From the NCBI RefSeq assembly GCF_037392515.1, contig NC_090287.1, positions 7,361,501-7,425,500 on the forward strand: a stretch of DNA of 64,000 bases, read 5' to 3'. Below are positions 539 to 62,829 of this stretch, in pieces. This DNA comes from Haliotis asinina (taxonomy: Eukaryota > Mollusca > Gastropoda > Lepetellida > Haliotidae). Each line of letters begins with the position of its first letter. Positions within the stretch are counted from its first letter, which is position 1. The notes beneath the pieces were generated by a model. That model searched no databases. It had not been told where the DNA came from and saw only the letters and a program-made list of their open reading frames with translations. Made by a program: the position numbers and the translations under genes.

Positions 539-2049
539 ATTTGTGATTAAATGGCAGTCAGATAAAAGGGGTTAGACAAAAGAGGCAATGACAAAGAAGG
601 ATAGGATGAATTAAGATGTACTTCAGTAAGGTGGAGTATGATCATGTGTGTCAGAAACTAGCTTAATTATTATCAATCATTTTCCTGTGCCTTCTTTTAG
701 TTGCACTGATCTCCAAATCAGTCCTATTTTTGTTTCAGGTAGGGTTGTATACAATCAGAAAGGTTTCGGTCTGCACTTAGTTTTGTACCTGGGTCTGAAG
801 TTAGGTACAGAAGTACATGCACCTTTCGCACATGCACAGTAGTTGGTGAACTAACACCCATATCCTCTATCTCTTCAGCAGCCCAGGTCCATTATACCCA
901 AGCTTCCAAGTCTGAGCATCGGTGGAACTTGATTGTAGCTGTGTACGACCACCACTGCCTGCCATCCCGCCCAACTGTACAAACGCCTGTCTGCCCGCCC
1001 GCCCGCCTGCCAAAACATGCACTTTTCTTCTATTTGCTTAAAAGCACTCCACATCTTACTACACTCACTCTTGGATATGATTGGTCCATATAGTTTCCTC
1101 TCTGCTTGACTGACCAGTCACCAGCCTCCTCACTGTTCTCTTCTCACATCAGCATTGCAAATGAATGGATGTTTCCAGTTGGTCCAGCTAACTTGGCCTA
1201 ACTATTTCATTGCCTGGATTCTGCTTTTGCTGTGACTAGCATGTGCACTGTTTGACACCAGTTGCTCGTAGCGCTTCTTAGTTCTCTCTCTGCGACTAAT
1301 ACTCCTTGCTTTTTTGCTGTTTTCAGAGCAAAAAACGGCTAGAAATAAGAAAGGTGTAAGACTGTATGGGGACTCCTAACACTGACGTATATGATGGCTT
1401 GTGTGGTGGAATTCATGGACCCATGCAGTATGTTTGAAGTACCTGTCTAATGTGCATGCTATTCGTCTGCTGCCAAGTCACCCTAAGTCTCGGCTGTGCC
1501 TGGTGGTGGTGGTGATGGTGATGTGTCCTCAGTCTGCTAATGTAGATGTCTTCAAGTGTACATGTCTTGTACTCAGACTCTGTGTTACGGTGAGGTCCTG
1601 TGCACAGAGGCACTGGAATGGTACTTTGAGATATTACCACTTGGTACCATTGGTAACAATTGGAAATGGTATCCCTCAAATTATGATGCAAATATTGAAG
1701 AATTAATTCTTTTGGAAGACTTCTTGGTTGAGTGTTAGAAAATTGGTTCAAATGCATTCCTGTGATGTCGTGACAGTACCAGAAAGAGGTGACAATGTAC
1801 CTTTCATGTTCTTAATGGATGTATCATTCAACAAAAATTAATTTAAAAAATGAACAATGGTATCCATCTGTATCAACTTCCGCTGCTACCTGGTGCCATG
1901 TTAGTCTTCAGAGACAGAGGCTAACATAACCATTGTATCCCCCGATGGTGTGAATAAAGTCATGGTGCCAAATAATCATTCTGCAGAGAAAATAGAATGC
2001 CTAAAATAGAAATCATAGTTATATTGCCTTGTAAAGTTTAAAAAGTTAT
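538..2049. other. No gene seen
   Basis: Mixed-composition DNA with short open frames only, none with a recognisable domain, paired splice sites or coding-like codon use. A run of GCCC units near 990-1010 is the only local oddity. Confidence 0.5.
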
Positions 2050-2410
2050 TGAACCAGGGCATGGTACATCGTGATACTCAAAGATAAAGTAGAAGAAGTG
2101 ATACTGTATTAGTATCAAGAGGCGACCATACAGAAATGGAACCAGGAACTGATTTGATAATGGTGCCAGAGGTGGTATGCTATTGATACCAAGAGGAGGT
2201 CATATGGTATTGGCACCAGGAGGATGTGATACAAAAGTGGCTCCAGAAGATGTGATACTGTAATGGTACCAGGTGTAGGTGATATAATAGTACCAGAATG
2301 AATTGATGTGATAGGATAATGGTATCAGAAGGAGGTGATACAAAAGTGTACCAGAGGTGATACTGTAATGTTACCTAGATATGGTAATGGTACCAGGAGG
2401 AGGTGATATG
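2050..2410. repeat. Degenerate minisatellite
   Basis: Loose repetition of GGTACCAGGAGGAGGTGATA-like blocks at irregular spacing of roughly 20-45 bp, heavily diverged. It looks like an old tandem array; short open frames on both strands here are by-products. Confidence 0.5.
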
Positions 2411-2714
2411 ATCTGTGATATGCAAGCAGGATTTGGCGAGTGCTTGAAACAGCTAGACAGTGTCCAGCTCCTTGAAGGAGGAGACATAGCAGCAAGTACT
2501 GTGATACGAACACAGATCATACTGTGGGCTCTGTGATGGCACAGTATTACATGATGGATCCTTGAAAAAGAAGAGGCAGCGTGGCATGAAGGAAGTGCTG
2601 TAGTGTGCTGTGCCACCAGACCCACAACAATATTCAATATGCATATGTGATGAAGTGTATCTGCACCTGTATTCTGAGATGGTCGTATGTAGACAGAAAA
2701 CAGCATTGCTCCAA

Positions 2715-2925
2715 CATTCTGTAAGTATGGCAACTGCATTATTGGAGCAGCAAGCAACTTTATGAAAATGCATCAACTGTATTACCGTGGCAGAGAGGAA
2801 GGAAGAACGTGTAGCTATGGCAACGTCATTATTTGGGCAGAAATCAGTGTTGTGTTACTATGGCAACCGCATCACAGGCACAGATGGGATGGAACATTGT
2901 GTAACTATGGCAACTGCGTTACTGG
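2715..2925. repeat. Diverged repeat with CTATGGCAAC cores
   Basis: Four blocks of the form GTGTAACTATGGCAACTGC-ATTACTGG at about 2718, 2810, 2853 and 2898, unevenly spaced. Each holds a GGCAAC half-site of the RFX X-box type. An open frame over 2762-3124 is probably incidental. Confidence 0.45.
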
Positions 2926-5235
2926 GGTATATGTGATAAATGACTTCCATGAGGAGCTGCCAGTTGTGTGTCAGTCCAACGACCCTGGTGGTGCTAGGAG
3001 GGCGATGTTGGTATTTAATCATGCATTGTTTGGAAATGAATCGGATGAAGATATTTTCCTGATCTCAAGACAAACATTTGACATGAAAATGTCACTATTT
3101 TTGTCTGTAACCAATAGCAACTAAATTATTCTCCCCATCACAGCTTGTGTTTGTGCAACAACAGCTGCTATCTCAGCATCATCTTCATCTGCTACATCAT
3201 CAGCTTCCCCCCGAGACTTGTACGTGATGGTTACTCAAGTGCCAAATATGGGTCCATTATTTCAAATTGTATGCCTCATCACAATCTTTTCAACAAGCCA
3301 CAAGTGTGGACTACCACACTGCAAGCTCTATTACTAATGTTTGGATTGTGTCACTATCATGTAACATAATGCATTTCCATTACGTATGAGGACTTGTTAC
3401 GTTGGTAAATAAGGAGGCTCACATAACATTATATAAAAACCAGCTCTTTCATGTCTGCAGGTGCTTGTTCTAATCTCTGATGGTCAAAGATAGCAAATGT
3501 CACCATGTACAGTGACAGTGGCAAACGGTATTTTGACCTATCATTAGGTCAAATAGTCATGGTCAAGGTAAAGCAAAGAGTACTCAATATGTGACCATAT
3601 TCTTAGAGAGGTGAAGGACATTATGGCAAAAACAGACAATTATGTCCGCAGTATTTATCGTAAGGAACTTAGAACTTTAATATGTCAGGTATTTACCTGC
3701 AACAAAATCAACATTTTATTTCATTTTGTCAAGTCTGTTGTGACTACAGTACTATATATGACCATGACCATGTCTGTGTAAATGTCCATCTCTCTGCCAC
3801 CATTGCCATAAACCATCTATGACCTTGTAACCTTGACCTGACCTGTATGCATGATGAGACAACCCAAGGTCATGGTCATTGCAAGATTATGTAAATATGT
3901 AATGTCAAGACATACAACAGTTGTAGTATATCTTGCTTATGAAACCTTGCAATCTGCAGGGCCAGTTGAAATACTGCATATAGCTGAGAATGAGAATCCA
4001 TGATGTGTGCATGATCCATAACTCATTGACATATGTATTAAATTATTCCACTTGTATTATATTTTGAAGTTTTAGTATCCATTGACATAGGTCATCAATA
4101 TAATGATGCAGAGATTTGAGATGAGCAAATTAAATCAGTACTTCTCTCCATCATTTAGACTTGCCATAAGCTGTCATCAAATAAAGTTGTTTTGTTTCAT
4201 AATTTGCTTTGTTTCAAATATTTATTATTTTGCAAAATTGCACTAAAGAAGATGGTATACGCTTCATGCATATTTTACAGTATTTTTTTTATGTCCAGTG
4301 ACCAAAGTGTATTCATTTGTCAGATCATTTCAGTGTGGAATTCCAAACATGGCAGTGTGTCCAAAATCATCAACTATTTTCTTTATCTACAGGAATACAT
4401 ATCACATGGAACAATTTATCAAGTTTGAACATTTATTTTTATGAAAATGTCTCCATGAACCAACTATATACAAGGCTTCACCCTCTTGTTTAGTGTGTCT
4501 ACAAAGTATTCATGTATTTAAGCATTCATTATTTTGTTGAATATTAGAAAGAAGTTATATTGTCCTCATAAGATGACGGTAATGAAAGGCTCAACTCACT
4601 GGTTCTGGCACTGGCAAATGGCACCTACCATTACTGGGATCATATCCACATTTTACCTGGCCTCAATACCTCTTCAACTCAAAATAAGTTTAGATGCTAG
4701 TCACTTCTGAAATCAGTCACTGAAGTGTCTCTGATGGCCCCACGAGAGATTCAATACATTATTATATGCGACAATAAATTTATCTAAAAGTCACATCAGG
4801 ACAAGATGAATTTCTTTTCTGCTTTTGCGGATGAACTGACCTTTTGAAAAAGTGGAAAAAAAACTTTGGGTTAATTGTTTGATCTAAAGATCTTTTTGTG
4901 TATATCTTTCTTCAATTATTATTTTAAGAGATTTTTTTATAACATTCTGCACCAATACATTTTATTTCACATGTTCGATAATGTTGTTTTATGATATGGT
5001 GCAGCCCTGAAATGAGGCTTGTTAAAGAGGAATATAAAGAGACATATATATGAGAATTTGTGTAAAAATATTTTGTATCATAGTTGTTATGTCAGATATA
5101 TGTTTCAAGCCTAAGAAACACACTGCAAGCTATGTGTCCACCATGCTGAACCAAGGGTATTTCACATTGCTGATCAATGTCATTCAAATAGCAGCATAGA
5201 TTTCATCTTTTATCATATTTTTTTCATTCTCTACT
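2926..5235. other. No gene seen
   Basis: AT-rich sequence without a recognisable exon, RNA or mobile element. It could be intron or long 3' untranslated sequence of a gene beyond the left edge, but nothing in the sequence decides this. Confidence 0.45.
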
Positions 5236-5249
5236 GTAACCATGGCAAC
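5236..5249. promoter_or_regulatory. Perfect RFX X-box motif
   Basis: GTAACCATGGCAAC is a full match to the X-box consensus GTNRCC-N(0-3)-RGYAAC bound by RFX factors. No gene start is recognisable nearby, so function is unproven. Confidence 0.3.
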
Positions 5250-5439
5250 AGAACCAATAATAGAATGACCATAATTTGATGACAGCCTCCATGTTGGATG
5301 AAGCAGCATGATTAGTTGTTAGATATTGGGGATGATACATGAACAACCTCCTTGAAATCTTGACATGTTTCTTCTGCTCTAGTGAATGTCTTACACACAC
5401 TTGGGGTTGTGGACATCCATTAGGCTGAACGTTCATACA

Positions 5440-6060
5440 TGACACTCATTGTAGTGGACACTGGTTATTGTGGACATCCAGTAGACTGAATGTTCATAAA
5501 AGACACTCACTGTACTGGACACTGGTTATTGTGGAGATCCAGTAGACTGAATGTTCATAAAAGACACTCACTGTACTGGACACTGGTTATTGTGGAGATC
5601 CAGTATAAAGAAGTTTCATACAAAACAGTCATTATTCTGGACACTGGTTACTGTGGACATCTAGTAGACTGAACGTTCATATAAGTCGCTCACTGTACTG
5701 GACACAGGTTATTGTGGACATCCAGTAGTCTGTTAATAGAAGACACTCACTGTACTGGACAAAATGGTTATTGTGGACATCCAGTAAACTGAACCTTCAT
5801 ATAAGACGCTCACTGAACTGGACACTGGTTACTGTGGACATCCAGTAGACTGAATGTTCATAGAAGACACTCACTGTACTGGACACTGGTTACTGTGGAC
5901 ATCCAGTAGACTGAATGTTCATAGAAGACACTCACTGTACTGGACACTGGTTACTGTGGACATCCAGTAGACTGTTCATAGAAGACACTCACTGTACTGG
6001 ACACTGGTTACTGTGGACATCCAGTAGACTGTTCATAGAAGACACTGTACTGGACACAGG
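5440..6060. repeat. 61-bp minisatellite
   Basis: About ten head-to-tail copies with the core CTGGACACTGGTTATTGTGG then ACATCCAGTAGACTG and AAGACACTCACTGTA. The spacing between CTGGTTATTG blocks is 61 bp; units at the right end are shortened. There are no unique spacers, so it is not CRISPR-like. Confidence 0.9.
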
Positions 6061-9000
6061 TTATATTGGACAGAGTTAGTACTGAAAGGCAATATACTCA
6101 ATACCTGGTGTTTTAAGACTGACATATATCTTCACATTGTGTGTACAGGCCACTCTTCATACTGGAAACTAGGTATTCTGGACATGGGTTGGCTTTTCAA
6201 AAGAGTACTGGTGACCTATTCCATCACAGCAGCGTCCAGTCCAATAGGAGAATATGTAGTCTCTGTTATCCATCAAAACACTCAACTGGGGAAAAAAGCC
6301 AAAATAACTGAGAACTATTTCTAAACGGATCACTAAAAATCTGTGACACCAGGTGTTCAAGAAAAGATTCAGCATGTGGTGTCCAACCAGTATCTGTCAA
6401 CAATGGTGTGTTGGATGTTTTACATTTAACTAGGGTGTCGACATCACAGAGGTCAGAAGGAAACATGAATTTAATTCAGTGAGGTATATGTGGTATCCCT
6501 AATTGGTCATGTAGATTGGGATACCATCCCAATTCCATTTACACAAGGCGTGAGAAAACACCCTATTGTTATTTCTATATATATTTCATCATTACTCTCG
6601 TCTTTTTCTCATGATACAGATATACGTATTGGAAAATGTTACCATTGACAAGTGCCATATTAGCATGTATAACTCTGCTTTCTAATGGCATTTTAGCACC
6701 TATTCTCTACTCCTGTTTCCCTTAATGATGCTGTTTTGGAATTTGATTCTATGATAAGCGATATAGCTGTTAGAACAAATTAGTTCATTACAAAAAAAAT
6801 CCCTAGTATATCTCTTTGTGATTTTTTTTGTTATTAACAAGTATAATAGTTGTTTAAGCTACGTGTTCTTGAAAAAATTGCTCGTCATGATTCATGAATC
6901 ATTAAAACTGCATCATGGGAAGGGATTAACACACCACCACTACCTTGCTTCCGTTAATGCTTTCGGAAAGTTCAACATTGTATATTTTGCAATCCATCAT
7001 AGTCTTGTCAGCGCTATCTTCAGCTTAGCATTGCGCTCTCAATGACAAATCCAATTTTCCATATTTTGAAATATGTATCCTGTCTTGTATGTAATTTTCT
7101 ATTGTAGACAGACTGCACTCATGAAGGGTCTGAATGCATGCATAGCTGACATATCATGCACTTTGTTTCATGATACCATGTTTCCTCTATTAAGTGACGG
7201 GATAAGCAGCAGTTTAAGAAATAAGCACTGGGTCTCTAATAAGAGGTGATCATGTGTTTTGTATTCATAAATGTATTCTCCAATGATCTTAAAAATTTGT
7301 GTATTAAAGAATGGGCCCTTTAGTCATAACTCCCTGTCTCCACATAGCACAGGTTTATGGATGTTGTATAATTATCATGCTGCAATGAGGAGGTTTCATA
7401 TGAATGGGAGTTAATGCTGGATGAACAGGCCCTGGGTCTCTAATAAGCAAGGGTCTGGAAGTCCATTAAAGAAAATGAGCACCCAGGCACTTACTAGAGG
7501 CAATACGGTATATAAATTAACGATATGCAGAAATAGCACAGAATAGCAGGAAGATTGTTATGGAGTCCCAGTTCAAGGTTGGTTGGTTGGTTAACATCCT
7601 CTGCTGATAGAGTTAGTGTGATTTCCTCTGTAGAAGGAAATATTACATCAGAACAGTAGCATTTGAAATATTTTCAGATTAACAATTGAATGTTATATTT
7701 TCATGTATGAATAGCAGGAACATGGGTTTGGAACACTCAAGGATGTCATCAGAATTGTGTCCAGACATGTGCACCCTTCATTCCCAATGTGTTTGGATTT
7801 CTGTCATTCTGAAATACTGGAAATCCACTGAATCCTGTTCAATGGTGAAATTATGCAGTCAGTTTGGAGCAGATAAGTTCAAATGACCAATCAAAACGAA
7901 GCAGTGAAGCTTCATTACCCAGTCAAATTGCAGCAGAGGTGTTATGTTGCTGAATCAGCATTGTCTAATGGACAGTATGATTGATTGTATATTATGGGCA
8001 TTTATTATTGCATGACACCACAATAATGTGCTAGTACCTGGATCATCAGTGGATTTGGGGTATTGGTTGGATTGTGGAAATACCAGCCCCTTGGGAATTA
8101 GGGATGTCGTTAATGTACTTCCATCAAAGGTGCCTATACTCAAGCAGTCTCTCAAAGGATAAAACTATATGTTTTAACTTTAAAGATACAAGCAAGACGT
8201 GATACTGGAGACATGGCTTGATTTATGGGTAAACACAGAATCACAGTCATTAAAGCAAATGTCTTGATACACTGGATTGCTAACATCCACTATCTATACA
8301 ATACCACAATTTGTGTTTCTTTCATAAGCGTCATGTAGTTTGTTGGGCAGTCATTACACTGTACAAACAGACCTAAACATCAGAATTGGGTCGCATTGGG
8401 GTTGTAGTAGCATACAAAAATGGGTCTCCTAAAAAATGGCACCCAATGTAGTTTTGTTCCACGGTAGCAAGTTTGTAGACTCTGAATCAACATTAAATAT
8501 GTCACTGCTAGAACATAGAAATATTTGATGACATTTGGTCCTGGTGTTATCCTCCAATATTGACCAAGAGAAGTATTGTTATGACACACCTGTTCAACTG
8601 TATTTACCAAGGGGAAAGTGCCACTTGTTATTTCACTCCCCTTGAGCTCGAGCTGCAAAACAAGGGAGAGAACCCGTGCCAAATAAATAACCCAGTCTCG
8701 GATCGGAGACGAACCAGAGTGCTACCCGGCTGTGTGTGGCAACATACCATGTGTGTATATTACATAACATCATTGTCTATTTATCCTATATTTTAGCCGA
8801 ATGCTTGTGCTGCCAGTATGTTTTGGATCTATGTCAATCTGCAGCTGTGTGTATACTGTAGGATTTACAGGAAAACCAGCATCTGTTGGAACTTGTACAG
8901 ATACGATGGGCAAAACCCACAACATTCGCTGATGTTAGCTGTTCAGGGGTTAACTTCTTTTGACATTTGCTGATGTTGACTTTGCAGCGGTTCAAGCCCT

Positions 9001-12576: not shown

Positions 12577-15500
12577 CTAACTCTTCGTTGGCTTGAGAAG
12601 TTTATCGAGCACCTTGAGTCCCTGTTCTTCATATTCCTGCCGAGATAACCAGAAGTCATTCTTATCCCGCATGATGTCAGCCAGAACTGAGCCTCCCAAA
12701 AATACCATGTGCTTCCTCCTGGGTGGATCTTCTATCCTGATCTTGAATTTCTGGAAACAGAACATCAAACTTATTTCATGTCAGAGGAATCAGACTCATA
12801 ACAATGAGAATGTGTTATCTCCATGCAAAGCAACTTCTTATCAATTTTAACAATGAAACAGTACTTGAACTTTGTATTCCCCTCTGATAAGTGTAAACTG
12901 GCACAACTCCCATGGTCTCAACTACATTTTTGGTAAAAAGCTATGTGACCTAATAGGTGTTCAAATTCAAGATGAGACTCAACCCAGAACGTGTAAGAAT
13001 CTGTTCTTAATTGACACTAATAAGAAAGACAAAATTCACCAAATATTTACATTCAACACAAACTGGTTGACATGCTCAATATCTTGGATAAATCAGACAC
13101 ATAAAGATCCAAGTCAGAACTGATACTGAGTAATCCATGCTAGAAACCCATGGCGGTCAGGCTCGCTGACTAGATTAACACATGTCATTGTATCCCAGTT
13201 GCATATATCAATGCTCACATTGTTGATCAATGGATTGTCTGTTTCAGACCTGAATCTCTACAGAGCGGTGCCAAATAGTTGGAATATTGCGGCATTAAAC
13301 AATCAGCAAACCAACTTTTAATAATAAAGTGAAGTCTTATAATGCACATATCTCCATGCAACAAAGCATGTTCAAAGCGCTAACACACTGATCATCATTA
13401 TTACCCTGTATAACCCAAGGTGCTTGTTAGGTGCTAAAAGGTTTTAGTCACATGACTTTTATCCCACTGGGTACCCATTTTCTGCTGGGTGACCAGAGGC
13501 AATTTTGAACAAACTCACTTGCCTAAGATGAGACCACATGTGCTTCATTGTGGGGCAGGACCAATGTCCTAGAAACTCTCAGGAGTCAAACTCTTCAAAG
13601 GACTCTCCGAGCTCAACGGTGCTTAACTTCAACTGATTTGTGACCCGAGCACTACGCACATGACCACTCTAACTTAGATAAACATATAGCGCCACTACAA
13701 CCACCACCACCATTTATTTCCATACCTATTCTTCAACTTACAGATAATTTTTCTACATCTCCTTTAAGAACCCTCTCCAAGTAGAGCTGTTTGATTTCTC
13801 TCTCAAGTCGACTTGGAAGACCTGGGTACATGGTGGAGCCCCCTGAGAGGACGATATGTTTGTAGAACTCTGGACGAGTGTCAATGTCTGCAGCATTGAT
13901 GGTGTTGAAGAGTAACTCTGCCACACCTACATTCTCCACATTGATCAAGTGGGGCTGGAACAAAGCTTCCGCAGCTCCGAACCTCTCACCACCCACCTTA
14001 ATAATTCGACCATCTGGGAGCTGAAGAATATAATATAAGTCTTGTTAAATAGGCAGTCTGGTCAAGTCAAGATGCAGTTTTTTTTAAACTGTAACTTGGT
14101 TCTCAGCATCATTTTCTTTACATCTTATTCTTATCATGTAGACTGGAATTCAGGGCTGTGTTCCACAATGTGATCACTCTGCTCGGATAAGATCATGACT
14201 TCTACACTGTACCAATACAGGTGTAACGATACAGTGATACATTATCGTATCCCAATACAAGACCCAGGATACAATATATCAGTTGAAAGGATGTGCATCA
14301 GATATATATGATATATTATAAATGCACTTTATGTAAATTCTAACTTAGCAAAAGTGTTCTCATGAAACAATTTTCAAAAGTACTAAGCAAAACAAAAGCA
14401 AGCCTCTTGGAAAACAAGACATAGAGCTTTCCAATCTAACTGGAATGTATCTGGTTATGTATTATATTGCAACCCCTATATCGTTACAAATCTTTTTACT
14501 ATGGCCCTAAGGAAGTCTTAGGGCTTTAATCACGTTGTCGAGATGGGTTCTTGAGGTCTTCTGTGTGGTAGAATACATGGTAAGTTATCATTCATTGTTC
14601 TATTTTTGTGTGTAAACATACATCTCAAATAAAATAAAAAAAACATGTCATCCCAAAGAGTTACACATGGATAGACTATGTGCCTGTTCAGTACTTCTTA
14701 GAGGTTGCTGCAGTCAGAGAATGTACTGAGCGACAGAGGTCATCCTTACAGGCTACAATATGGTAGGTTTAAGAATAGTACATACCAAAGTATCTGAAAA
14801 ATGAAACCTACTTTTCCCATGATAATTGTATCTACAGTACTTCACAACACTATTTGAAATAACCAGAAAACCATCAAATATTTTGTCAGAGTCCTGGCAA
14901 GATATTTGTCAAGTGGACTCCTATCCAGCAGGATCCATGCATAATCACCAACTCAAACATGATACAATAACATCAGTCACACGGATATACTAAGTTTCCA
15001 TAGATCATAAACTCTTATAACCAAGTCATAGAGTACTTTCCACCTTATGGGATTTCAATAACAAGGTGCCTGTTCAGTACTTCTAAGAGGTTGCTGCAGA
15101 GAATGTACTGAGCGTTAGGCATCATCCTTGCAGACCCAAACATCGTATGTTTATGAATACTATCCAATACAGGATAATATAATAATATTTAAAAAAAAAG
15201 AAAAACAGTGGTAATAATATTTATTTTGATGTTTATCTTTGGTAAAAGGGAAAACTATTCCCCCCTGTGAGCATGAAAACAATTTCTTTCAACATGATGG
15301 GGTAGCAACTGATCAAATAAAGAACATAAAGATTTGTCCAAGTTACAAGCATGATACTGTTAGCATGGCAAATGTCTTCACTGTGTTTTGTGTTTTTTCA
15401 ACATTTCACTGTACCAGAATCCCTGTGATGAAATCTACAGCACTTTAAATGATATACAAATGAAACCCACACATAACACTTACTCCAACATTAAAAGATT

Positions 15501-18500
15501 CGTCTTCACACTTGGATCTAACATGATCCAATGACAGAGAATTTGATCGAATGACAGGGAATTTTCTTCCTCAAAGGACGTCATTAACATGGTGCCTGTT
15601 CACTACTTTTTAAGAGGTTGCTGTAGACAAAGAATGTACGGAGCTGCAGAGATCATCACTAGACAAACACGCAAGCACAAAGCCACCCCACCCTGCCCCC
15701 AACACAGGGTTACCTGAAACAGCAGCCCAGAGTTTGTTTCAATTTGTGACACCACCATAATCATCCCATAGGCTACAGTATGCAAAATCATCAGTGCAAC
15801 AACAACTGGCTTTAGTCCATATTTAGTAGCACAATATTCACGTACAACCATGCTGTGCTGTAGGCCGTAACTCAATCACTGTTTTAAGCAATCAGTGAGA
15901 AAGCCTGGTTCCTTTAGTGCTGTCACTCGGTATTATGGCGATGAAACTCTGACGAGTAGTTTCATCTCAATATTTCACACAGGATCTAAACAGTACATAT
16001 ATCATAGGGGAAAGTCCTCCTTGAAGACTTAGCTTGCCTGTTCAGTACTTCTTAGAGGTTGCTGCAGACAGAGAACGTACTGAGCGAAAGAGGTCATCCT
16101 TACAGGCTTTATACCAGATATACTTGGTAACTGTTGCATGTTTACTCCTTCAAAAGGTTTCTGTTGGACATATTGCAACTTCAACCACAAATATCTCACC
16201 ACACTCACATACCCGGTGCCCACACACACTCTCACTTTACACTCACTCACTGCCATGCCTAACCTGTGGAACACCCGCTCGCTCATCCACCCACACCCTC
16301 GCTCATCCTCTGCCCCCTACATATATGCATCTTCTTGCAGACATACGTATGTATACTCTCACACAAACACACTCCCATACACCCAAGGCTATCAGGGAGA
16401 GTTTCAATATTCTGTTGAAACAGGAAAACCAAACAAAATACTTCCTGCATCCATCGAGTGACAACAGACCAAAACCCCTGACACAACCAAACTAAGTACA
16501 GAAACCTTGGCCATTCACCATCCAACACAGCAGTTGTTGATAATATGCACTGTACATATTTCCTCATGCTCAGCACTGAGTAGGCAGGGTTTGTACTTCC
16601 CTGTTCTATTACACCAGACATAACAAACCGCACCACCTGCACATACTACAGATGCATATGTCTTGCATTCTCAGCCCTTTGATCTACAAATTGAAAATAT
16701 ATAAACCACCCAGCCAGCCTGTTGACACCACAATCCTTAAGTCATCAAAGCCAAAGGATCAATCGTTAAGCCAATACCGAAATATACTGCTCAAGAGAGG
16801 TTAAATAACACTAAAGTTTTTCACATGACTGCAGTTAATCTGTGAAAATGGAAGAAGCAGATAAACCTTGATTATATTAGCTAGTATATAACACCTTAAC
16901 GTAAATTATTGTCATCAGAACAGAAATTTATAACCAAGTTATTCTTACCTCGTATGGTTCTACTAGGACTGTTGTTTCTAAGGCAAGTTTTTGTTCTTGT
17001 TCTATATCATAGGCGACATAGCATAGCTTTTCTTTCATCATTCGTACTGTTTCAAAGTCAGCGGAATGGTTGAAGGCATACCCTCGGAGCAGCAGCAGCT
17101 GAAACACAGTATCAATACTACAGCTACATGTGTCACAGTACTAACACAACGGTTATTATTATTTATGTAAATATATCAAGGGGAGTGGGTACTAAGCATG
17201 CTAAAAAAACAGTTAATGAAGCAGCAAAAATATGAAAATATGTGTACCAACCTTGATGAGATATTTGGTAATGTCTCGACCGGCGATGTCCAGACGCCGG
17301 GTGAGATGTGGAAGTGCAAAGCCTTCATACACAGGGCAGATGTGTGTGACACCATCTCCGGAATCTACCACAACACCCGTCAACAGACCTGGAAATACCA
17401 CAGTGGGAGAATATCACACACACTTTTCTACCGAGACAGTCTCCATGGAGCACATTCAGTACTTGTATAATAAAGACCATTAATCATTCCATCACAACAC
17501 AAGGTGCCTGTTCAGTACTTCTTAGAGGTTGCTGCAGTCAGAGAATGTACTGAGCGATATACGTCATCCTCACAGGCCACAATATGATATGTTTAGGAAA
17601 ACTATAAGGCAAAACAAATTTCATGTATGAAAACTAATAAATAATAAAACTAGCTGCAACTATTTGGATCTTATATTTGCTGAAAAGGGAAGTTTCTTTA
17701 CTGTTAGCATGATGGTGAGCGCTCTAAAGTGAGTGAGTGAGTTAAGTTTTACGCCGCTTTTTAGCAATATTCCAGCAATATCACGACGGGGGACACCAGA
17801 AAATGGGCTTCACACATTATACCCATGTGGGGAATCGAACCTGGGTCTTTGGCGTGACGAGAGAACGCCTTAACCACTACGCTACCCCACCGCCCCAGCG
17901 CTCTAAAGATTTTCAAGCAACATGTTGAGGTTATGGTAAGGAACAACCTTGACACTTAAAATAATAATGCATGGAATTAAGACACACACAATCACCAATA
18001 TAAGTATAGCAACGTATCTCTTCCAACCTAGTTTTATGTACAAGTTAAATCTAACATGACTTTCTAATACACTGATCAGTAACAAGATCTAAATATCACA
18101 GCTTCATTAAATTGCTGATTCTTAGCATTCCAGAGAAATTTCTTACTCAACTGATAGTCAATGACTAGGTGCCTGTTCAGTACTTCTTAGAGGTTGCCAC
18201 AGACAGAGAATGTACTGAGCTAGAGAGGTCATCCTCACAGGCAAGGTATTATGTCTCCAGTGTTCAAGTTTATACACACTGAGAATAGAACCCATAATGA
18301 TTACTTCTAATTGGGCAAGAAATGCAACATGAGACCACTGTGAACTTTAGACCTGAAGCGATAACCCACCTTGTGCATACAGCGTCAACACAGCCTGGAT
18401 TGCTATATGCACACTGTGAAACTGGTATCTCTCAAACATTGTCTGTAACAAAATCAAACAACTGTTCACATATTCACACCACATTCAGCAATAGAATCAC

Positions 18501-21500
18501 AAGAATATACATGACTGACTATCAGGAATCTAAAACTGAGTTGGGTTTTACACCGCTTTTAGCAACATTCCAGCAATATCACGGCTGGGGACACCAGAAA
18601 TGACTTTCACACCTTTGATTAACATATTGAGAATCAAGGATATCTAAGAAACTTTAAATAATAGTCCATGATGACTATAAAGTTTGATATTCAGAAAAAG
18701 TTGCGTGACTGGTTCACTATCACATACAATGGTATGTCAGTACGTGAATCTAAAGCTTATTTCTCCTGTACTTTACATAAAGTGAGTGAGTGAGTTTAGT
18801 TTTACGTCACACTTAGCAATATTCCAGCTATATGGCGACGGTCTGTAAATAATCGAGTCTGGACCAGACAATCCAGTGATCAACAACATGAGCATCGATC
18901 TGCGCAATTGGGAACCGATGACATGTGTCAACCAAGTCAGCTAGTCTGACCACCCGATCCCGTTAGTCGCCTCTTACGACAAGCATAGTCACCTTTTATG
19001 GCAAGCATGGGTTGCTGAAGGCCTATTCTACCCCGGGACCTTCACGGGTACTTTACATAAAGCAATGTATAATAATAAGCAATTCATAATAACCCAATTA
19101 ACAAGGACAACCTGTTAAATGATACAGAACAGTGAAAGTCAAAGATAAACTATTTAAAACATTTCATTTTTTTGACAGATGTTAAATGCTTAACTCAGCA
19201 AATTTTCAGCTACTGGTATACCAGGCAATCAGTAAATATTAGGGCATGGTGAGAGAATCCTGTGGTCAACATCGTGAAGAAATTGAGACACAGCAATATG
19301 TGACATGACCATCCAATTCTGATAGTCACCTCTTAGGGCAAGCATGGATCGCTGAATTCCAGTCATAACCTGGATCCTCACAGACAGAAAGTTAAGGCAA
19401 CTAACATTGCTGGAAACTTCAACGAGCAGCCAGCCCTACAAACTGTTTCTATTTCAATAACTGGCAAATAACAGTTTATCATTCAAGCATCCTGAAAGGT
19501 TCACAGATGTGCAGGCCGTTTTTCAACACAGTAAACTGGTGTTTCCTAACACTCAACCAAATTAAACAGACTGTACAAATTAGAGACTAGACTTACTTCT
19601 GGCAAACAAGGGTAAGTTGGACTGATGCAGAGAAAGCGTTAAGAAGCAAGCAGCTCACGGCAATGAGGAAACCCATTTGGTTTGTGAAAGGTAGAGAAGA
19701 TGTAGGCTTGTGCACATACAGTGAATGATGAAATAGATTCTGCACATAGCTGCACACACCTAGCTCAAAAGACAGGTCATGTGCTACACCAATCGAACTA
19801 CACTTGATCATGGATAACCTGGGGCCCTTTCTCTCACCATGGCAAGCACCAGTGGGCAGCACTCATACATGCTAGCACAGGTCAATTGTCAGGTTGGTGC
19901 TTAACTTATCCTTGTTTGCCAGTAGAACTATTGGTGCATCACTTTCCAACTATGCTTTTATCTAAATCACTCACTTCTATCATTTTTTCTCTATTCTTCA
20001 TTGGGTTCATTGGCGGCTCTGTCAACAGGATGCGACAATCTTTGGTGTTCAGATTCAGTTTCTCTTTACCAAAAGTATAGTCATATAAATGAATCATATC
20101 ATCCCAGTTTCGAACAACACCATTCTCCATGGGATAATTCACCTCCAACATGGACCGCAAGGCACTAGCCTCATCTCCGATCATCAGATCCTTAAAAAGA
20201 CATAAAAAAAATATGATCAAACATTCCAATAACAATCTATCCCCACAGTATCAAAACAAACATGTCCAAATGTCTGAGTTACCTCCTTCACATTCATACA
20301 GCTTTGTCCACAAGTGTCAACAATAAAATCTAATTACCATATGAAGGAAGTTACAAACCTTAACTTCAATGTTACCAATCTTTGCTGTGGATCTAATGAT
20401 TGGTCTTCCAACAAGAGATGGAAATATGTGCTCTGGGAAGTTTTGACCAGCATATCCACACTTGACAAACTGCAAACAAAATGAATAATAAGCATAAGTT
20501 GCATTCATGTTGTTGTTTTAACTTTAGTGCCAGCTATACTCATCTTACTTAAAAGATAAGATTCTGTGGATCTCCAAGATGCAAACAATGTAATGTTACA
20601 CTTCAAAGATCACCACTAATTTCTAACACTGTATGAGCTGTTTTAAGTTAAGCCAATGAGGTAATAATACATCTCATTATGTTTACTTGACTTTGGACAC
20701 ATACAGTACTAGCTAGAGTCACATAGAGTGTCTCTGTTTGATATGTAACATCAGTGTTGGAGTCCTTGAAAATTCATGCCATATTCATGATAATAGTCAA
20801 CTGGAAAACATGGAAGGATTACACACTCCATTAATTTCTTTGTTGATTAACAATAACACATTTACAGTCACATAACATTTAATAGCAAGAAAATATCATT
20901 TAAAGGGCATATCTTACACAGATACAAAAAATTCAGGAGCAATTTTCATGCTAAAGTTTAAGTACTGATCATGTAGAAGGAACCAGGTGGGTGTAACTGT
21001 GAACATAACACTGATTCTGTTACAACTGAATGTGTCAGCTTAAATCAGGAAGAACAATCACTGCCATGAGTTCACAATGGTAATGGCAGACCAAGGGCTA
21101 CACTCAGGGCGAATCTATGATTCAAGAGAAATATTTGTTTACATTCTCGTGGCTGGTTTGAAGGGATGCCATGAATTCCATATCACCTATCAACTGAGTT
21201 GACAAAACCAATCACTCATATAAGACGATTTTGACACATTTTTGGCACTGTAACATAATCATACCAAAAACATTATTGACAATATGCAATTCCATGCAAA
21301 AGTGTATATGTACTTTTGCAAGTAATGAAAATTAAAACCAGCATCTTATAATCAGATGTGTATGAGGAAAATTCAACAAGATAACACATACAAACACTAA
21401 GTAATCAGGAAGTGAAACAAAATGCTCAGAGGGAAAAGGGGGTGGGGTCATTTAGGCAACTTTTCTCGAATCCATACTTCAACACAAAGACATCGACTAA

Positions 21501-29520: not shown

Positions 29521-29684
29521 AATTTAGAGAATCAATTGAACTCTGATTTCACAGGGGTTTTTTCATCGCATTTTTTTAAACTTTATAGGCTGAATTGGCA
29601 TTTTTGATGATTTGTTTCGGTAAGTGCATACTGAAAGGTGTCAGAATGTACAAAGTTGTGTTTTACGTTGCATGTGTCCTTTAA

Positions 29685-33130: not shown

Positions 33131-33206
33131 AATATACGACAAAATGTTATGGATGTCAACTTCTTATTTATCAGAAGTTGGCATCCATAACATTTCGTCG
33201 TATATT
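33131..33206. repeat. 34-bp inverted repeat with 8-base loop
   Basis: Arms 33131-33164 and 33173-33206 pair over 34 bp with two mismatches around the loop TATTTATC. The inner arm TTATGGATGTCAACTTCTT is the same as the terminal sequence of the Penelope-like element at 43.6-44.7 kb, so this is probably two inverted element ends meeting, rather than a microRNA precursor. Confidence 0.75.
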
Positions 33207-34759: not shown

Positions 34760-34771
34760 GAATGTTTTAAG

Positions 34772-39593: not shown

Positions 39594-40369
<776 letters not shown>

Positions 40370-41830
40370 CTCAAACATGAGCTGCAACACAGGGTTGACA
40401 TAGGTGAAACATGAGCTACAGCAAGGAGCTGACACAGATCAAACATGAGCTACAAGAAGAAGATGACACAGGTCAAACATGAGCTACAGCAAGAAGATGA
40501 CACAAGTCAAGCATGAGCTACAGCAAGAAGATGACACAGGTCAAACATGAACTACAGCAAGAAGATGACACAGGTCAAACATGAGCTACAGCAAGAAGAT
40601 GGCACAGGTCAAACATGAGCTACAGCATGAAACTGACACAGATCAAACATGAGCTACAGCAAGAGGCTGATATAGATCAAACATGAGCTGCAGCAAGGAG
40701 CTGACACAGGTCAAGCATGAGCTACAGCAAGAAGATGACACAGTCAAACATGAGCTACAGCAAGAAGCTGACACAGGTCAAACATGAGCTACAGCAAGAA
40801 GATGACACAGGTCAAACATGAGCTACAGCATGAAGCTGACACAGATCAAACATGAGCTACAGCAAGGAGCTGACACAAGTCAAGCATGAGCTACAGCAAG
40901 AAGATGACACAGGTGAAACATAAGCTACAGCAAGAAGCTGACACAGGTCAAACATGAGCTACAGCAAGAAGATGACACAGGTCAAACATGAGCTACAGCA
41001 TGAAGCTGACACAGATCAAACATGAGCTACAGCAAGAGGCTGATATAGATCAAACATGAGCTACAACAAGAAGATGACACAGGTCAAACATGAGCTACAG
41101 CAAGAAGCTGACACAGGTCAAACATGAGCTACAGCAAGAAGCTGGCACAGGTCAAACATGAGCTACAACAAGGAGCTGACACAGGTCAAGCATGAGCTAC
41201 AGCAAAAAGATGACACAGGTGAAACATGAGCTACAGCAAGAAGCTGACACAGGTCAAATATGAACCACAGCAAAAGGCTGACATAGGTCAAACGTGAGCT
41301 ATAACAAACCATGAGCTACAGCAACATGAAGTACAGCTGATCAACGTGAGCTGCAACACAAAGCTGACATAGGTCTAACAAGTGCTAGAGCAAGAGGCTG
41401 GTATGATCAACTTGAGCTGCAACACCAAGCTATTACAGGTCAAACATAATCTGCAGCGGAGAGCTGGTGTGGGTCAAACTTGAGGTGCAACACTGAGCTG
41501 GTATTGGTCAAACATGATCTGCAACACAAAGCTGGTACAGATCCAACATGGTCTGCGATACATAGCTGATAGAGGTCTAACATGGTTTGCAACACAGAGC
41601 TGATATAGGTCAAACGTGATCTGCAACACAGGGATGATATAGGTATAGGTAAAACGTGATCTGCAACACAGAGCTTATACACGTTCAACATGACCTGCAA
41701 CAAAGTGATGTTACAGGTCCAACCAGATCTGTAACAGAGAACTGATATTGGTCCAGTATGGTCTGCAACAGAGCTGATATTGGTCAAACATGATCTGCAG
41801 CAATGTGCTGGTATAGGTAAAGCATGAGGC
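40370..41830. repeat. 34-bp minisatellite
   Basis: Unit AGCTACAGCAAGAAGATGAC then ACAGGTCAAACATG, repeated about 28 times to 41330 with variants (AAGCTGAC, AAGATGAC, GAGGCTGATATAG), then about 14 much more diverged units to 41830. Adjacent units vary but keep period. No protein reading frame is kept across it. Confidence 0.92.
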
Positions 41831-43592: not shown

Positions 43593-43959
43593 AAGTCTTT
43601 GAAGGGCATTTAGAAGTGAAATGCATAAGAATGAAGATTTTATGGATGTCAACTTCTTTATATGAGAACACAACGTTTCGGAGTTAATGCTTACTCCTTC
43701 ATCAGGTGATTGAGAATGGGGTACAGAGTTATATTTATATGTACAGGTAAAGCAATAACAAAGTAACAAGTGGAATGACTTAACGAAAGCTGGAAGCCAG
43801 TATAAACAAGCGCTGATTGGAAACCGACAGTTATGATAACAATGATAGAAGCCAATGGTAATACATTACAGATGATGGGATATGTTTACATAACACAGGT
43901 AGGGGGTAAGGACGATGTACATGATAGGGGAAAAGGGTGGAAGCCAATGGTGGATGATG

Positions 43960-44210: not shown

Positions 44211-44641
44211 TCTCATCTATCTGTGTACATTCTATCTATGTATCTATGTAATCCATGTATAGCCAATCTACCCGTGTACATCCTTATCTACTTGTGTTTG
44301 TACATCATCTACCCCCATGTAAACATGCCCATCAACCCTCATGCAGTCATGTACATCATCCTTATCCCCAATCATGTGTTATGTAAACATCATCCACCAT
44401 TGGCTTCCACCCTTTTCCCCTATCATGTACATCGTCCTTACCCCCTACCTGTGTTATGTAAACATATCCCATCATCTGTAATGTATTACCATTGGCTTCT
44501 ATCATTGTTATCATAACTGTCGGTTTCCAATCAGCGCTTGTTTATACTGGCTTCCAGCTTTCGTTAAGTCATTCCACTTGTTACTTTGTTATTGCTTTAC
44601 CTGTACATATAAATATAACTCTGTACCCCATTCTCAATCAC

Positions 44642-44672
44642 CTGATGAAGGAGTAAGCATTAACTCCGAAAC
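44642..44672 (+). ncRNA. Hammerhead-ribozyme-like core in the retroelement arm
   Basis: CTGATGA, then a stem GGAGT/ACTCC with an 8-base loop, then GAAAC: the order of the hammerhead catalytic core. Penelope-like elements are known to carry hammerhead motifs in their terminal repeats. One extra A precedes the stem and I find no convincing stem I, so activity is doubtful. The inverted arm holds the same motif on the minus strand at 43675-43705. Confidence 0.4.
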
Positions 44673-44721
44673 GTTGTGTTCTCATATAAAGAAGTTGACA
44701 TCCATAAAATCTTCATTCTTA

Positions 44722-44873
44722 AACATACATATTGTTGTCCACGTTCCCCACAGCACACATCCTCTATCTACTTTCCCCATAATACACATCCTGCTGTCTA
44801 CGTTCCCCACAATACACATCCTGGTGTCTACGTTATCCACGATACACATCCAGCTGTCTACGTTCCCCACAAT
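44722..44873. repeat. 30-bp minisatellite, middle part
   Basis: Five units of the array interrupted at 43593; the CCACAAT at 44867-44873 is the left target copy of the next insertion. Confidence 0.9.
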
Positions 44874-45800: not shown

Positions 45801-47692
45801 TTTTTTACATGTATTTTAACTTCAGTTAAAGCACAGTTAACCACAGTGCGAGTAGACATCTATTTGACCGGGGTAAGTCAACCTTGGCCAGATCAACAAG
45901 CTCAAGAGTTGGTCTTTTCTCATAGGTAAAATAAAGTGTACACCTTGAGGTTAAAACCTACATTTTACCACGTGTTTGCCAAGTCAAGACACTGTTTTCC
46001 TTATCTTATCTTCCAACAGTTGCCTTTTTGCCACGCCGAAGGTTATCGCAATATTAGCGCATGTGTCATAATTTACAACTGAAAACTTCGACGATGTAAT
46101 TTGCTAGTAACATCACAATAAGGACATAGCTGCTCGCACATCCTTTTATATTCCTTGAATCAATATTTGTGTCGTGTGCTAATTTATCTGTATTGGTATG
46201 TTGAGTAAACGAGTGAAGTTTAAAAACACGAATACTTCGTGAAATGTCAGCTAAATGTGAAAGGAAAGGTCACACTGAGTCAGACCCAAATGCATTTGCT
46301 GATGGCAGTGTGAGAGTCGTAATTGGCGGGGAACAGTCGCGGAATCGAACCTAATCTAAGTGTATCCTGAGCGACATGTTGACCTGATCCAGGACTGGAC
46401 ACAAATGTCCCTCTCAGGATACAATCAGACAGGACGCCTCGTATCATCATGATAGTCAGCCTCCCATGTCTGTTGTATGAGACGACTTACCGGATCGGGT
46501 GCTCAGGTTCACAGACTTGCTTGACACGTCATCATGTCCCAGTTGCACAGATAAATATTTTAAGGATATTGAAAGGGTTTTGTTGCCTTCATTTGCGGCG
46601 CCATAAAAGGATGAACACCGCAATATTCACGCATTCATTCCGGTATCATAGCGTATTGTTTCAGTAATTAATTATTTTTTCAAGCTCCAGCTGTTTCCAT
46701 TGGGGGGTTTCCAATGAGAATATCTTTACGAAGCCATGAAATGCTACTAGGTAGGACTGGGAAATATGTTCAAAGAGGAACGCTCAAACTTAGAAATCTT
46801 TAAGGATAAAACTGAGGGTCTTTCCGCTAACTGCTCAGAAACAATACTGATTATTCAATGTGACTGACTTGCCTTGTTTGTGTGTGCACATGTATTGTCA
46901 CAGCATAAGTCCTTGGATTGTTGCACTCGGTTATGGGTAGCTGAAATACTGCTCAGTGCAGCGTTTAACAATAAACCAGCAAGCTTGTGTTCAAAGTTCA
47001 GTCAAACCAGGACGTATTACACGTATTACGTGTTCCAGTTCGTAACAGAAGAGTAGCAAGCCACTTCCTTCGAGTAAAGTTGCAAAGCTTCATATTTCGG
47101 TGATATTAAGGACTTGCACAAAAAATATGTAACAAGCCCGGGCTCTCTTTTATTATGGTAGCCACGTCCTTGCGCAACTCTGACAAAAACAGCTTTTAAT
47201 TGCAGTGTCCAGTACTAAAAAAAGTACGCCTGCTGTGTACTTTTTGGAATGTGATTCAAATGTACAGCGACCTGCAAAATGCACTCAGGCAACATAGCGG
47301 GTCTTTTCCTACAACTACTTTACTATATCTGGTGGATTCATTACACAGAAGATGTTTCACACAGCTGTCTACTGTGGGTTCACTGTAAACTATTTTTATG
47401 TATGCGATTGCTTTCATGAAATAGATGAAGCTCCCTATCAACCATTTTAATGTCACAGGTGGTTTCATTATAGTAGAACATTTAAAAGTATGTTAATCAT
47501 AGAGGGAAGGTTTTTGTACAACTACTTCAGGCAATTTCAGTTCAATCTGCGCCTTCTTAAAATAGTTTCCACCATAAACACTACATCAATGGGTGACTGT
47601 GTTCACCGTGGAAAAGGGATGTATGTGCCGGTTTGTCTTACACGATTCTGAAACCTAAAAACCTAACAATATGCAGCGAGAGCGAGCGAAAC
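45801..47692. other. No gene seen; SINE scrap
   Basis: About 46460-46560 matches the middle of a plus-strand family B SINE (ACCGGATCGGGTGCTCAGG, then CTTGACACGTCATCATGTCC). Otherwise unrecognised. Confidence 0.45.
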
Positions 47693-52002: not shown

Positions 52003-52224
52003 AATAATAGCATTTAGCGTTAACCGCTAAATTGTGTTATTGATGGCGTGGCTATACCACGTGCCTTTGTTTATAAATATTACCTTGGCTCGCGCAGCTG
52101 CAAACATTACGTCAAATCATGACGTCATCAGTTGTTACGTCATCACAACACGCGACAGATAACGGTGCTTCACTTCTCGCGTCTCCGCCGAACACTACTT
52201 ACCGTCGCTCACTACCATATTAAC
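52003..52224 (+). repeat. Ngaro split repeat A1 with promoter-like motifs
   Basis: Its outer end has ATTTAGCG and CGCTAAAT as inverted 8-mers around a 5-base centre (52011-52031), a possible recombinase site. About 100 bp in are three CRE-like motifs: TTACGTCA (about 52108), TGACGTCA (about 52120) and TTACGTCA (about 52135), which ATF/CREB factors bind. A2 at 57066-57287 repeats all of this. Confidence 0.75.
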
Positions 52225-56785: not shown

Positions 56786-57070
56786 TGGCCTGCTTGGGGT
56801 GAGAAGCTATCAATCGCTATGCTGCTGGTTGTCCGCTTTCACAGCAGAAACCAAAAAATCGTAATTCCAGCCTGCTTCACAGTAGGTGGAACTCATCGCT
56901 CGCTACGCTCACCTCGTCTGCTTGTCACAGCGGAAAGGTGATTATGCATTAATACCATGCTCTCGCTCGCTGCTGCTGCTCCTTCTCACCCCCGTAGCCA
57001 TCCACACATATTGGCCATTACTCCCAAGATAATATCTTCCTTTTCATTTAAAACGCAAGTCCAGCAATAA
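56786..57070 (+). repeat. Ngaro split repeat B1
   Basis: 285 bp, TGGCCTGCTTGGGGTGAGAA to CAGCAATAA, matching B2. Confidence 0.9.
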
Positions 57071-57287
57071 TAGCATTTAGCGTTAACCGCTAAATTGTGT
57101 TATTGATGGCGTGGCTATACCACGTGCCTTTGTTTATAAATATTACCTTGGCTCGCGCAGCTGCAAACATTACGTCAAATCATGACGTCATCAGTTGTTA
57201 CGTCATCACAACACGCGACAGATAACGGTGCTTCACTTCTCGCGTCTCCGCCGAACACTACTTACCGTCGCTCACTACCATATTAAC
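57066..57287 (+). repeat. Ngaro split repeat A2
   Basis: 222 bp, matching A1; shares AATAA with the end of B1. Confidence 0.9.
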
Positions 57288-57414: not shown

Positions 57415-57699
57415 TGGCCTGCTTGGGGTGAGAAGCTATCAATCGCTATGCTGCTGGTTGTCCGCTTTCACAGCAGAAACCAAAAAATCGTAATTCCAGC
57501 CTGCTTCACAGTAGGTGGAACTCATCGCTCGCTACGCTCACCTCGTCTGCTTGTCACAGCGGAAAGGTGATTATGCATTAATACCATGCTCTCGCTCGCT
57601 GCTGCTGCTCCTTCTCACCCCCGTAGCCATCCACACATATTGGCCATTACTCCCAAGATAATATCTTCCTTTTCATTTAAAACGCAAGTCCAGCAATAA
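57415..57699 (+). repeat. Ngaro split repeat B2
   Basis: 285 bp, matching B1; right border of the element. Confidence 0.9.
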
Positions 57700-61750: not shown

Positions 61751-62829
61751 GGGGCGTGTGTGTTTATTTTTTGTTTTGGATTTTTGTTCTGTTAAAATAA
61801 CCCCAAACTTGAGGTGTGTACCTATGACAGTTTAGTTAAACAGTTTTATTTGGTTACATTCCGACACATGGTTTCATTTTCTCTTGACTTCGAAATTTGG
61901 GCGTCTGTCGTTCTCGAAAACCTTCACATCACTCCAAAACTTGACAGAAATAACATATGTTGGATTATTTATATAAATATTACCAGAAACATTCATATCC
62001 AAATATGACATACATAAATGTGCTACTTCCGATGTTTCAAAAAGGATAATTAAAACACCATGTCGTGTCTAAGTTGTATTACTAATCACACTCAACATTC
62101 AACAAAACGGTTCATGAGAACAAACAAACCGGAAAACATTATATCATATTATACCCTTGCAATGTACCGCCGTGATATTGCTTGAATATTGCTAAAAGCG
62201 GCGTAAAACCAAACTCACTCCTTGCCATATAAGGACAGATACAAATTTCTTATAAGCTGCTGATTTTACCTTTTACATTTCTTACACAACAGATTTTTTA
62301 CTTTTCCTGATATTTTGTTCGTTGCTTTGTCCAGACTGGTGCGAAGGGTTGGGTAGGAATGTCCGACATAAATGGTCGGTCCAGCCCGAATTGACATTGT
62401 TTCCGTGTCTCACAAAAAGACCCTGATTAACCTTGAATTTAAAGCTTCAACTGGGTTTGACAATGACAGATTATGAGGGAAGGGATCAGATCGCTAGAGA
62501 GAAACTGTCAACAGGGAAAGCTTGTCTATTTTAGTCCCCGTTTGAAACAAAGCGTCACACATCCCCCCGACGCCGGGAACCCGGTAATGAAAGGTAGATG
62601 CCTTGACGAGGACAGGGACGGACTGATGCCTAGTTGCCTCACGTCCCCGCCCCTAGGCGGCTAAATATTGACTCAAACTCGCTTCGGGCCGTAGTTAGTC
62701 GTCCAGTCAGAACATTTGTTGATGGATTTGAACCGGCAGAGATGAGCGTGGCTGCACCTCTGTGGAAAGACCTACAAAAGGCTCAGGACAAGACCTCAGA
62801 GAGGGAGGGGCTGTCCATTGTCGTAATTT
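61751..62829. other. No gene seen; SINE tail scrap
   Basis: A family A tail (GAATATTGCTAAAAGCGGCG, then TAAAACCAAACTCACTCC) lies at about 62170-62222. The GC-rich stretch 62560-62680 holds an open frame (62634-62876) of unknown meaning running into the satellite. Confidence 0.45.

Follow-up and report, generated by a model that had tools for sequence, protein, structure and literature searches.

Why do two introns of the gene for the actin-related protein Arp2 carry related versions of one short sequence, six in all? The question arises in a stretch of 64,000 nucleotides of the abalone Haliotis asinina (contig NC_090287.1, positions 7,361,501 to 7,425,500 of the forward strand), hereafter the window, whose own numbering is used for its coordinates. 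A sequence-only reading of the window had described a unit of roughly 72 nucleotides (nt) that occurs four times in intron 6 and twice in intron 4 of ACTR2, always on the gene's strand, and had taken it for a locally amplified box C/D small nucleolar RNA (snoRNA) of the SNORD61 type. Our analysis points the same way, with the qualification that two copies are damaged and the C box is off consensus. The box architecture, the base that lies opposite the fifth guide position from the D box (D+5), the pairing with the animal's own 18S ribosomal RNA (rRNA), the sense orientation within introns, the nearest Rfam families and the restriction of matches to ACTR2 together argue for a U61-type guide that was amplified locally. 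Judged from these sequence features, we place the probability at roughly 0.88 that the ACTR2 introns encode, in these units, box C/D guide RNAs for the U61 site of 18S rRNA and that the units were duplicated within this gene.

The host gene is well defined. Exons 2-8 have GT/AG borders and join into a single open Arp2 frame, exon 7 matches Arp2 chains of known structure with E-values as good as 7.4e-52 (best actin, 2.2e-21), and a likely exon 1 (VIVCDNGTG) lies near 21735, so that the intron numbers given earlier are correct. The coordinates and the exon frame likewise bear out the distribution of the copies, with c1 to c4 in intron 6, c5 and c6 in intron 4 (Table 1), and all six on the minus strand, which is the ACTR2-sense strand. 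A covariance model built from the six copies detected no unit in introns 3, 5 and 7 of ACTR2. This model recovers the six copies at 74.8-104.2 bits, as it must, and gives two weaker matches in the window, one at 47228-47290 on the minus strand (15.2 bits, E 0.03), which is without the GAUGA core, and one at 29597-29642 on the plus strand (E 1.6).

Read as RNA, an intact unit consists of GCCUGU, a 3-nt bulge, GAUGA, an interior, the guide CCUCUAAGAAGU, a single A, the D box CUGA and ACAGGC. By the general rule, a C/D kink-turn is made up of a stem, a 3-nt bulge, tandem G.A pairs, a U.U pair and a G-C pair, and the sequences of the four intact copies (c1, c4, c5 and c6) contain the kink-turn spacing and a 6-bp terminal stem. 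In these four copies the stem, the C-like box, the 12-nt guide and the D box are identical letter for letter while the linkers vary, exactly as had been claimed, and CUGA directly adjoins ACAGGC. The same junction is found in c2 with a weaker stem, this copy differing by one substitution in the guide, two changes in the stem and the loss of 4 nt, and the D box of c3 reads GUGA. The earlier count of six copies thus holds as six related units, of which four are intact 72-mers and two, c2 and c3, are damaged. A strict descriptor (6-bp stem, 3-nt bulge, GATGA, 30 to 79 nt, CTGA, stem) matches the window four times, at c1, c4, c5 and c6, compared with a mean of 0.017 and at most one match in 60 first-order Markov sequences. 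Similarly, a 20-mer of the unit with up to three mismatches finds five matches in the window, where 100 shuffles give an expectation of 0.00.

The guide designates a specific site in the animal's own 18S rRNA. The 18S gene of the same genome was located at three ribosomal DNA (rDNA) loci, and the target is present in all three. Pairing was tested on one fetched rDNA stretch (L014) of 9413 bases, of which 5000 (1914-6913) are N and in which 28S was not identified; its positions 258-1922 are eukaryotic small-subunit rRNA by Rfam (1409.8 bits), the last few bases falling in the N run. For each intact copy, the best pairing in this stretch comprises 12 Watson-Crick pairs at 18S ACTTCTTAGAGG, and this perfect match is lost in c2 and c3. 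Counted from the D box, the fifth base of the guide lies opposite the second U of ACUU, which is base 1433 of the 1665-nt Rfam-bounded 18S and the second U of AACUUCUUAGAGG. This base should be the equivalent of human U1442, given the guide and spacing held in common with Rfam SNORD61 and the published U61/SNORD61 entries. In the accessible part of one such source (PMC8817022), human Um1442 is guided by U61, and the same row holds Um1281 of Arabidopsis (AtU61) and Um1456 of Dictyostelium (CD1); the accessible part of a horse study also gives SNORD61 with 18S U1442 (PMC12288042). Yeast snR55 was considered as a U61 counterpart and rejected, since the table as available in PMC8817022 pairs snR55 with U33 and has no yeast entry for U1442. 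No match to a 24-mer written with the vertebrate bases was found in this genome, whose own 18S differs from the 24-mer at one base, downstream of the target. Viral contigs scanned for the conserved 18S stretch gave no match. As a separate observation, a contig of a bacterial metagenome-assembled genome, JAGWVP010000167.1, starts with about 105 bases of eukaryotic 18S rRNA (L001 1-105) and is apparently a chimera or a contamination.

The pattern of variation bears on whether the units are still maintained. Comparison of c1, c4, c5 and c6, with c2 and c3 left out as damaged, yields nine variable columns, none of which falls within the 35 stem, box and guide columns (P = 0.0015, a value that treats related copies as evidence and takes its functional columns from the hypothesis itself). 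The intact units are 90-96% alike, and 10 of 12 comparisons of their adjoining 40-nt flanks are at or below 0.55, the 95% level for unrelated intron pieces (mean 0.48). Two comparisons lie above this level, the upstream flanks of c1 and c5 (0.68) and the downstream flanks of c5 and c6 (0.56); when all six copies are included, the number is 8 of 30. One could hold that the whole family consists of non-functional relics of former snoRNA genes, with the true U61-type guide elsewhere or the site unmethylated, and the non-consensus C box in five of six copies, the internal hairpin over the guide and D box, and the clear damage to two copies would all suit this explanation. Relics are nevertheless improbable, given that four copies keep the stem, guide and both boxes while their linkers vary, that nearly all adjoining flanks of these copies are at background, and that the exact guide-plus-D pattern is found nowhere else in the genome.

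The latter result comes from a search of the assembly of 1,143,192,487 bases (1.143 Gb) in 159 contigs. The guide plus D box, CCTCTAAGAAGTNCTGA, has four exact matches, all of them the intact ACTR2 copies, and the backwards-read control has one. This exact-pattern search covers the full guide and D box. With the whole c1 unit as query, all five scored matches are in ACTR2 and represent five of the six known copies; because this query missed c3, diverged copies could exist elsewhere. A genome search with Rfam SNORD61 returned no match, a result that says little because only 61 of 730004 candidates were scored and the ACTR2 copies were missed as well; 8 of 14 control genomes gave a signal. These searches also bear on the idea that the unit is a short mobile or repeat element, akin to a short interspersed nuclear element or a miniature inverted-repeat transposable element (MITE), which landed several times in ACTR2 and resembles a snoRNA by chance. 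The 72-nt size, the fairly sharp ends and the form of an imperfect palindrome with matching ends would be in keeping with such an element, but neither the c1 query, which passed over c3, nor the guide-plus-D query found a unit outside ACTR2. Moreover, the flank common to c1-c5, c2-c3 and c3-c6 fits local DNA duplication and not insertion, and a 12-nt 18S guide at D+5 would not be expected, so that we consider a mobile origin very improbable.

The flanks also suggest how a locally amplified guide RNA family may have arisen. Without gaps, common flank is seen upstream of c1-c5 (27 of 40), downstream of c2-c3 (27 of 40) and downstream of c3-c6 (20 of 40), and in a gapped comparison c1-c2 and c2-c5 are prominent upstream too, at 0.66. 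A neighbour-joining tree, which has no support values, places c2 and c3 apart from the other four. Retroposition is disfavoured, and duplication at the DNA level preferred, because some pairs share flank and no poly-A stands out in the 40-45 printed flanking bases. The pattern would be explained by short local DNA duplications, after which the flanks decayed while selection or gene conversion preserved the core. It is believable that most of what is seen here is ordinary local duplication, and that the unusual part is the internal hairpin over part of the guide.

Several observations weigh against the assignment of the units as U61-type guides. A covariance search with C/D models, proposed by the sequence-only reading, had a divided outcome: no Rfam family reaches its gathering score in the window, the best SNORD61 (RF00270) score being 27.7 bits against a cut-off of 43, whereas SNORD61, SNORD125 (RF01200) and snoU61 (RF01170), all of clan CL00067, are the nearest families of the four intact copies. 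In E-value mode over 9 kb, the minus-strand matches are SNORD61 for c4 (27.7 bits, E 0.89) and c6 (27.6 bits, E 0.92), SNORD125 for c1 (26.7 bits, E 0.11) and snoU61 for c5 (22.4 bits, E 0.33). From this 9-kb table c2 and c3 are absent, and unrelated families in it score 24.9, 24.7 and 23.7 bits (E 3.5, 1.5 and 4.4), so each Rfam match taken alone is weak. For SNORD61 as a family named in advance, division of the E-value by the 4227 families gives about 2e-4, and in the whole-window search SNORD125 is the only match of the U61 clan to pass E 2. Five of the six copies have AGGAUGA as their C box, with G in place of the U at position 2 of RUGAUGA and the GAUGA core kept, and the canonical GUGAUGA occurs only in the decayed c3. 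This departure from consensus accounts for the failure to reach the SNORD61 cut-off, and the units appear, by their sequence, U61-like in target and layout yet outside RF00270 by score.

The D' box is also not conserved, being CUGA in c1 and c5 and CUGU in c4 and c6, and inspection of the copy alignment by eye found no conserved D' or C' box and no conserved second (D') guide. In the box C/D class, C' and D' boxes are often degenerate and are not taken here as a requirement. The distances from the units to the 3′ splice site are 117, 661, 782, 1047, 1573 and 2015 nt, mostly far off the roughly 70-80 nt that is often quoted for vertebrate C/D RNAs. Beyond the unit ends, the first 10 downstream bases are somewhat alike (mean pairwise 0.51, ungapped). 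In addition, pairings of similar size, G-U included, occur in the unannotated part of the rDNA stretch outside the 18S (8668-8681 of L014), where 11 of the 14 pairs of c4 and 12 of the 14 of the decayed c3 are Watson-Crick, and the argument from pairing consequently relies on the place of the match and not on its length alone.

The remaining difficulty is an internal arm opposite the guide. Unit bases 25-36 (UCAGUAC-A-UUCU) pair with bases 56-66 (AGAA-GUACUGA), which are the near half of the guide and the D box, through 7+4 Watson-Crick pairs and one bulged base (A; G in c4) in the four intact copies, and the arms are kept in c2 as well. Shuffles of the interior matched this arm length in 0, 0, 1 and 4 of 3000 cases for c1, c4, c5 and c6, and the run of seven alone in 63 to 101 of 3000; the shuffles were of single bases, the test was chosen after the fold had been seen, and the copies are not independent. 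The nine variable columns all lie outside the arm (post hoc P = 0.025). Folding of the whole unit is not exceptional against dinucleotide shuffles, with z values of -1.45, -0.33, +2.79, -1.64, -1.21 and -1.79 for c1 to c6 (c3 and c4 were entered with one extra base each). In the predicted ensemble for naked RNA, the probability of being unpaired is 0.01-0.04 for guide bases 56-61 and 0.02-0.10 for the D box, and 0.71-0.91 for guide bases 50-55. The corresponding probability for the guide is 0.58 in the SNORD61 consensus and 0.19 in the SNORD125 consensus, and for the next six bases it is 0.36 and 0.67. Since these consensus guides are themselves partly self-paired, self-pairing of the guide alone is not unique to the units, and in these folding models the buried D box is the stronger difference from SNORD61 and SNORD125.

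The kink-turn has to compete with any structure in which the D box is buried, so that either the core proteins win during transcription, which would be the likeliest outcome, or the hairpin has a role of its own. Such a role could lie in the host transcript if the units were structural or splicing elements of the ACTR2 pre-mRNA, either intronic hairpins or microRNA-like precursors, with the likeness to a guide being secondary. The 7+4 pairing of the intact copies and the arms kept in c2 would accord with this explanation, and the accessible part of PMC10324135 describes snoRNAs in mammals that lie within introns, base-pair with the host intron and influence splicing. However, overall folding is unremarkable by z, the large one-sided internal loop is unlike a microRNA precursor, and the kink-turn spacing and the 18S guide would be left unexplained, and we give this explanation very little credence. 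If the units are guide RNAs, as we favour, the hairpin could instead be an internal target mimic that covers the D box together with the adjacent half of the guide, the distal half, CCUCUA, staying mostly accessible, although we think such a self-masked guide unlikely on the present folding models. The duplex with 18S is predicted at -19.8 kcal/mol and the self-duplex at -11.7 kcal/mol, and a masked guide and D box could for this reason open on the target. In that event the open half could serve as a toehold on 18S, with the guide and D box opening only when the correct target or assembly factors are present. The arm would then be maintained by selection, and the unit would amount to a self-switching C/D RNA whose multiple copies offset weak assembly.

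Taken as U61-type guides, the units suggest the following sequence of events. After transcription and splicing of ACTR2, the debranched introns 4 and 6 would be trimmed to protein-protected units of 72 nt, in which the C/D kink-turn would bind the core of SNU13, NOP56, NOP58 and fibrillarin. The 12-nt guide above the D box would pair with 18S ACUUCUUAGAGG, and fibrillarin would methylate the base opposite the fifth guide position, U1433 of the Rfam-bounded 18S (human U1442). The family itself would stem from short DNA-level duplications within ACTR2, after which four copies were kept, one was weakened and one decayed, and the several copies may serve dosage. The units would thereby supply a candidate guide for one conserved 18S methylation in this animal, and the assembly holds no other exact guide-plus-D match.

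Comparison with known systems places the units close to U61. They have the 12-nt guide and the 1-nt spacing to CUGA in common with the SNORD61 consensus, so that the 18S target should be the same; SNORD61 is intron-encoded too, its human copy being placed in an intron of RBMX in the accessible part of PMC6381762. The units differ from SNORD61 in their C box (AUGAUGA in SNORD61), in the first base above the D box (an unpaired A, where SNORD61 has U), in having a 6-bp terminal stem and no conserved D'/C' pair, and in the internal arm pairing the guide and D box, the host gene and the presence of four intact copies. Duplication of intronic snoRNAs has precedents: the accessible part of a study of Suberites sponges reports an H/ACA RNA of RPL13A duplicated in a neighbouring intron and cites nematodes and platypus (PMC3412847). 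In contrast, the RNAs considered here are of the C/D class, number six with up to four per intron, and reside in a gene that does not encode a ribosomal protein. Several snoRNAs in one intron are a recognised arrangement according to the accessible part of PMC12205218, whereas in ACTR2 every member is a copy of one guide. The literature searched for ACTR2 as a snoRNA host gene contained nothing, and titles and the openings of abstracts on snoRNAs in Haliotis or mollusc introns gave no account of snoRNAs inside this gene. Within this literature on snoRNAs and ACTR2 or molluscs, the host gene, the copy number and the self-masking arm are new here. The locus would offer a clear case of one guide multiplied in introns of a non-ribosomal gene, and the internal hairpin and odd C box would test how far a C/D RNA may depart from consensus and still work.

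Table 1. Window coordinates of ACTR2, the introns that carry units, and the six units with the parts of c1
Feature	Position	Strand	Basis
ACTR2 (Arp2) exons 2-8: 20359-20469, 19975-20190, 18370-18442, 17252-17388, 16949-17098, 13742-14020, 12577-12750	12577..20469	-	frame, Arp2 match
ACTR2 intron 6, 2928 nt, carries c1-c4	14021..16948	-	exon model
ACTR2 intron 4, 981 nt, carries c5 and c6	17389..18369	-	exon model
c1, intact 72-nt C/D-like unit, intron 6, 661 nt to 3′ splice site	14682..14753	-	
c1 terminal stem, 5′ half, GCCUGU	14748..14753	-	
c1 C-like box AGGAUGA, 6/7 of RUGAUGA	14740..14746	-	
c1 anti-guide arm UCAGUACAUUCU; pairs guide 3′ half and D box, 7+4 bp, one bulged A	14718..14729	-	
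c1 guide CCUCUAAGAAGU; 12 Watson-Crick pairs with 18S ACUUCUUAGAGG	14693..14704	-	
c1 D box CUGA	14688..14691	-	
c1 terminal stem, 3′ half, ACAGGC	14682..14687	-	
c2, 69 nt, boxes kept, weaker stem, one guide substitution, 4-nt deletion, intron 6	15068..15136	-	
c3, decayed: D box GUGA, broken guide and stem, C box GUGAUGA, intron 6	15594..15664	-	
c4, intact 72-nt unit, intron 6	16036..16107	-	
c5, intact 72-nt unit, intron 4, 117 nt to 3′ splice site	17506..17577	-	
c6, intact 72-nt unit, intron 4, 127 nt from 5′ splice site	18171..18242	-	

The window holds other repeats and hairpins in addition to the units. A dispersed repeat family of about 286 nt has a member in ACTR2 intron 3 (18781-19066) and others at 34770, 35577, 47756 and 58544. 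At 33131-33206 there is a near-perfect long hairpin, the segment 33121-33215 folding at -48.2 kcal/mol, which looks like a MITE-type palindrome; its likeness to Rfam microRNA precursors, seen on both strands, is below the cut-off for both mir-8196 (E 0.021) and MIR1319 (E 0.025). An inverted repeat (43621-43959 and 44388-44726) has 339-nt arms that are 99% complementary and 428 nt apart, and tandem arrays with periods of 34 nt and 68 nt (34 x 2) occupy 40269-41773 and 62824-63939. Finally, two pairs of direct repeats, 56786-57070 with 57415-57699 (285 nt) and 52003-52224 with 57066-57287 (222 nt), are 100% identical, hinting at very recent duplication or assembly effects.

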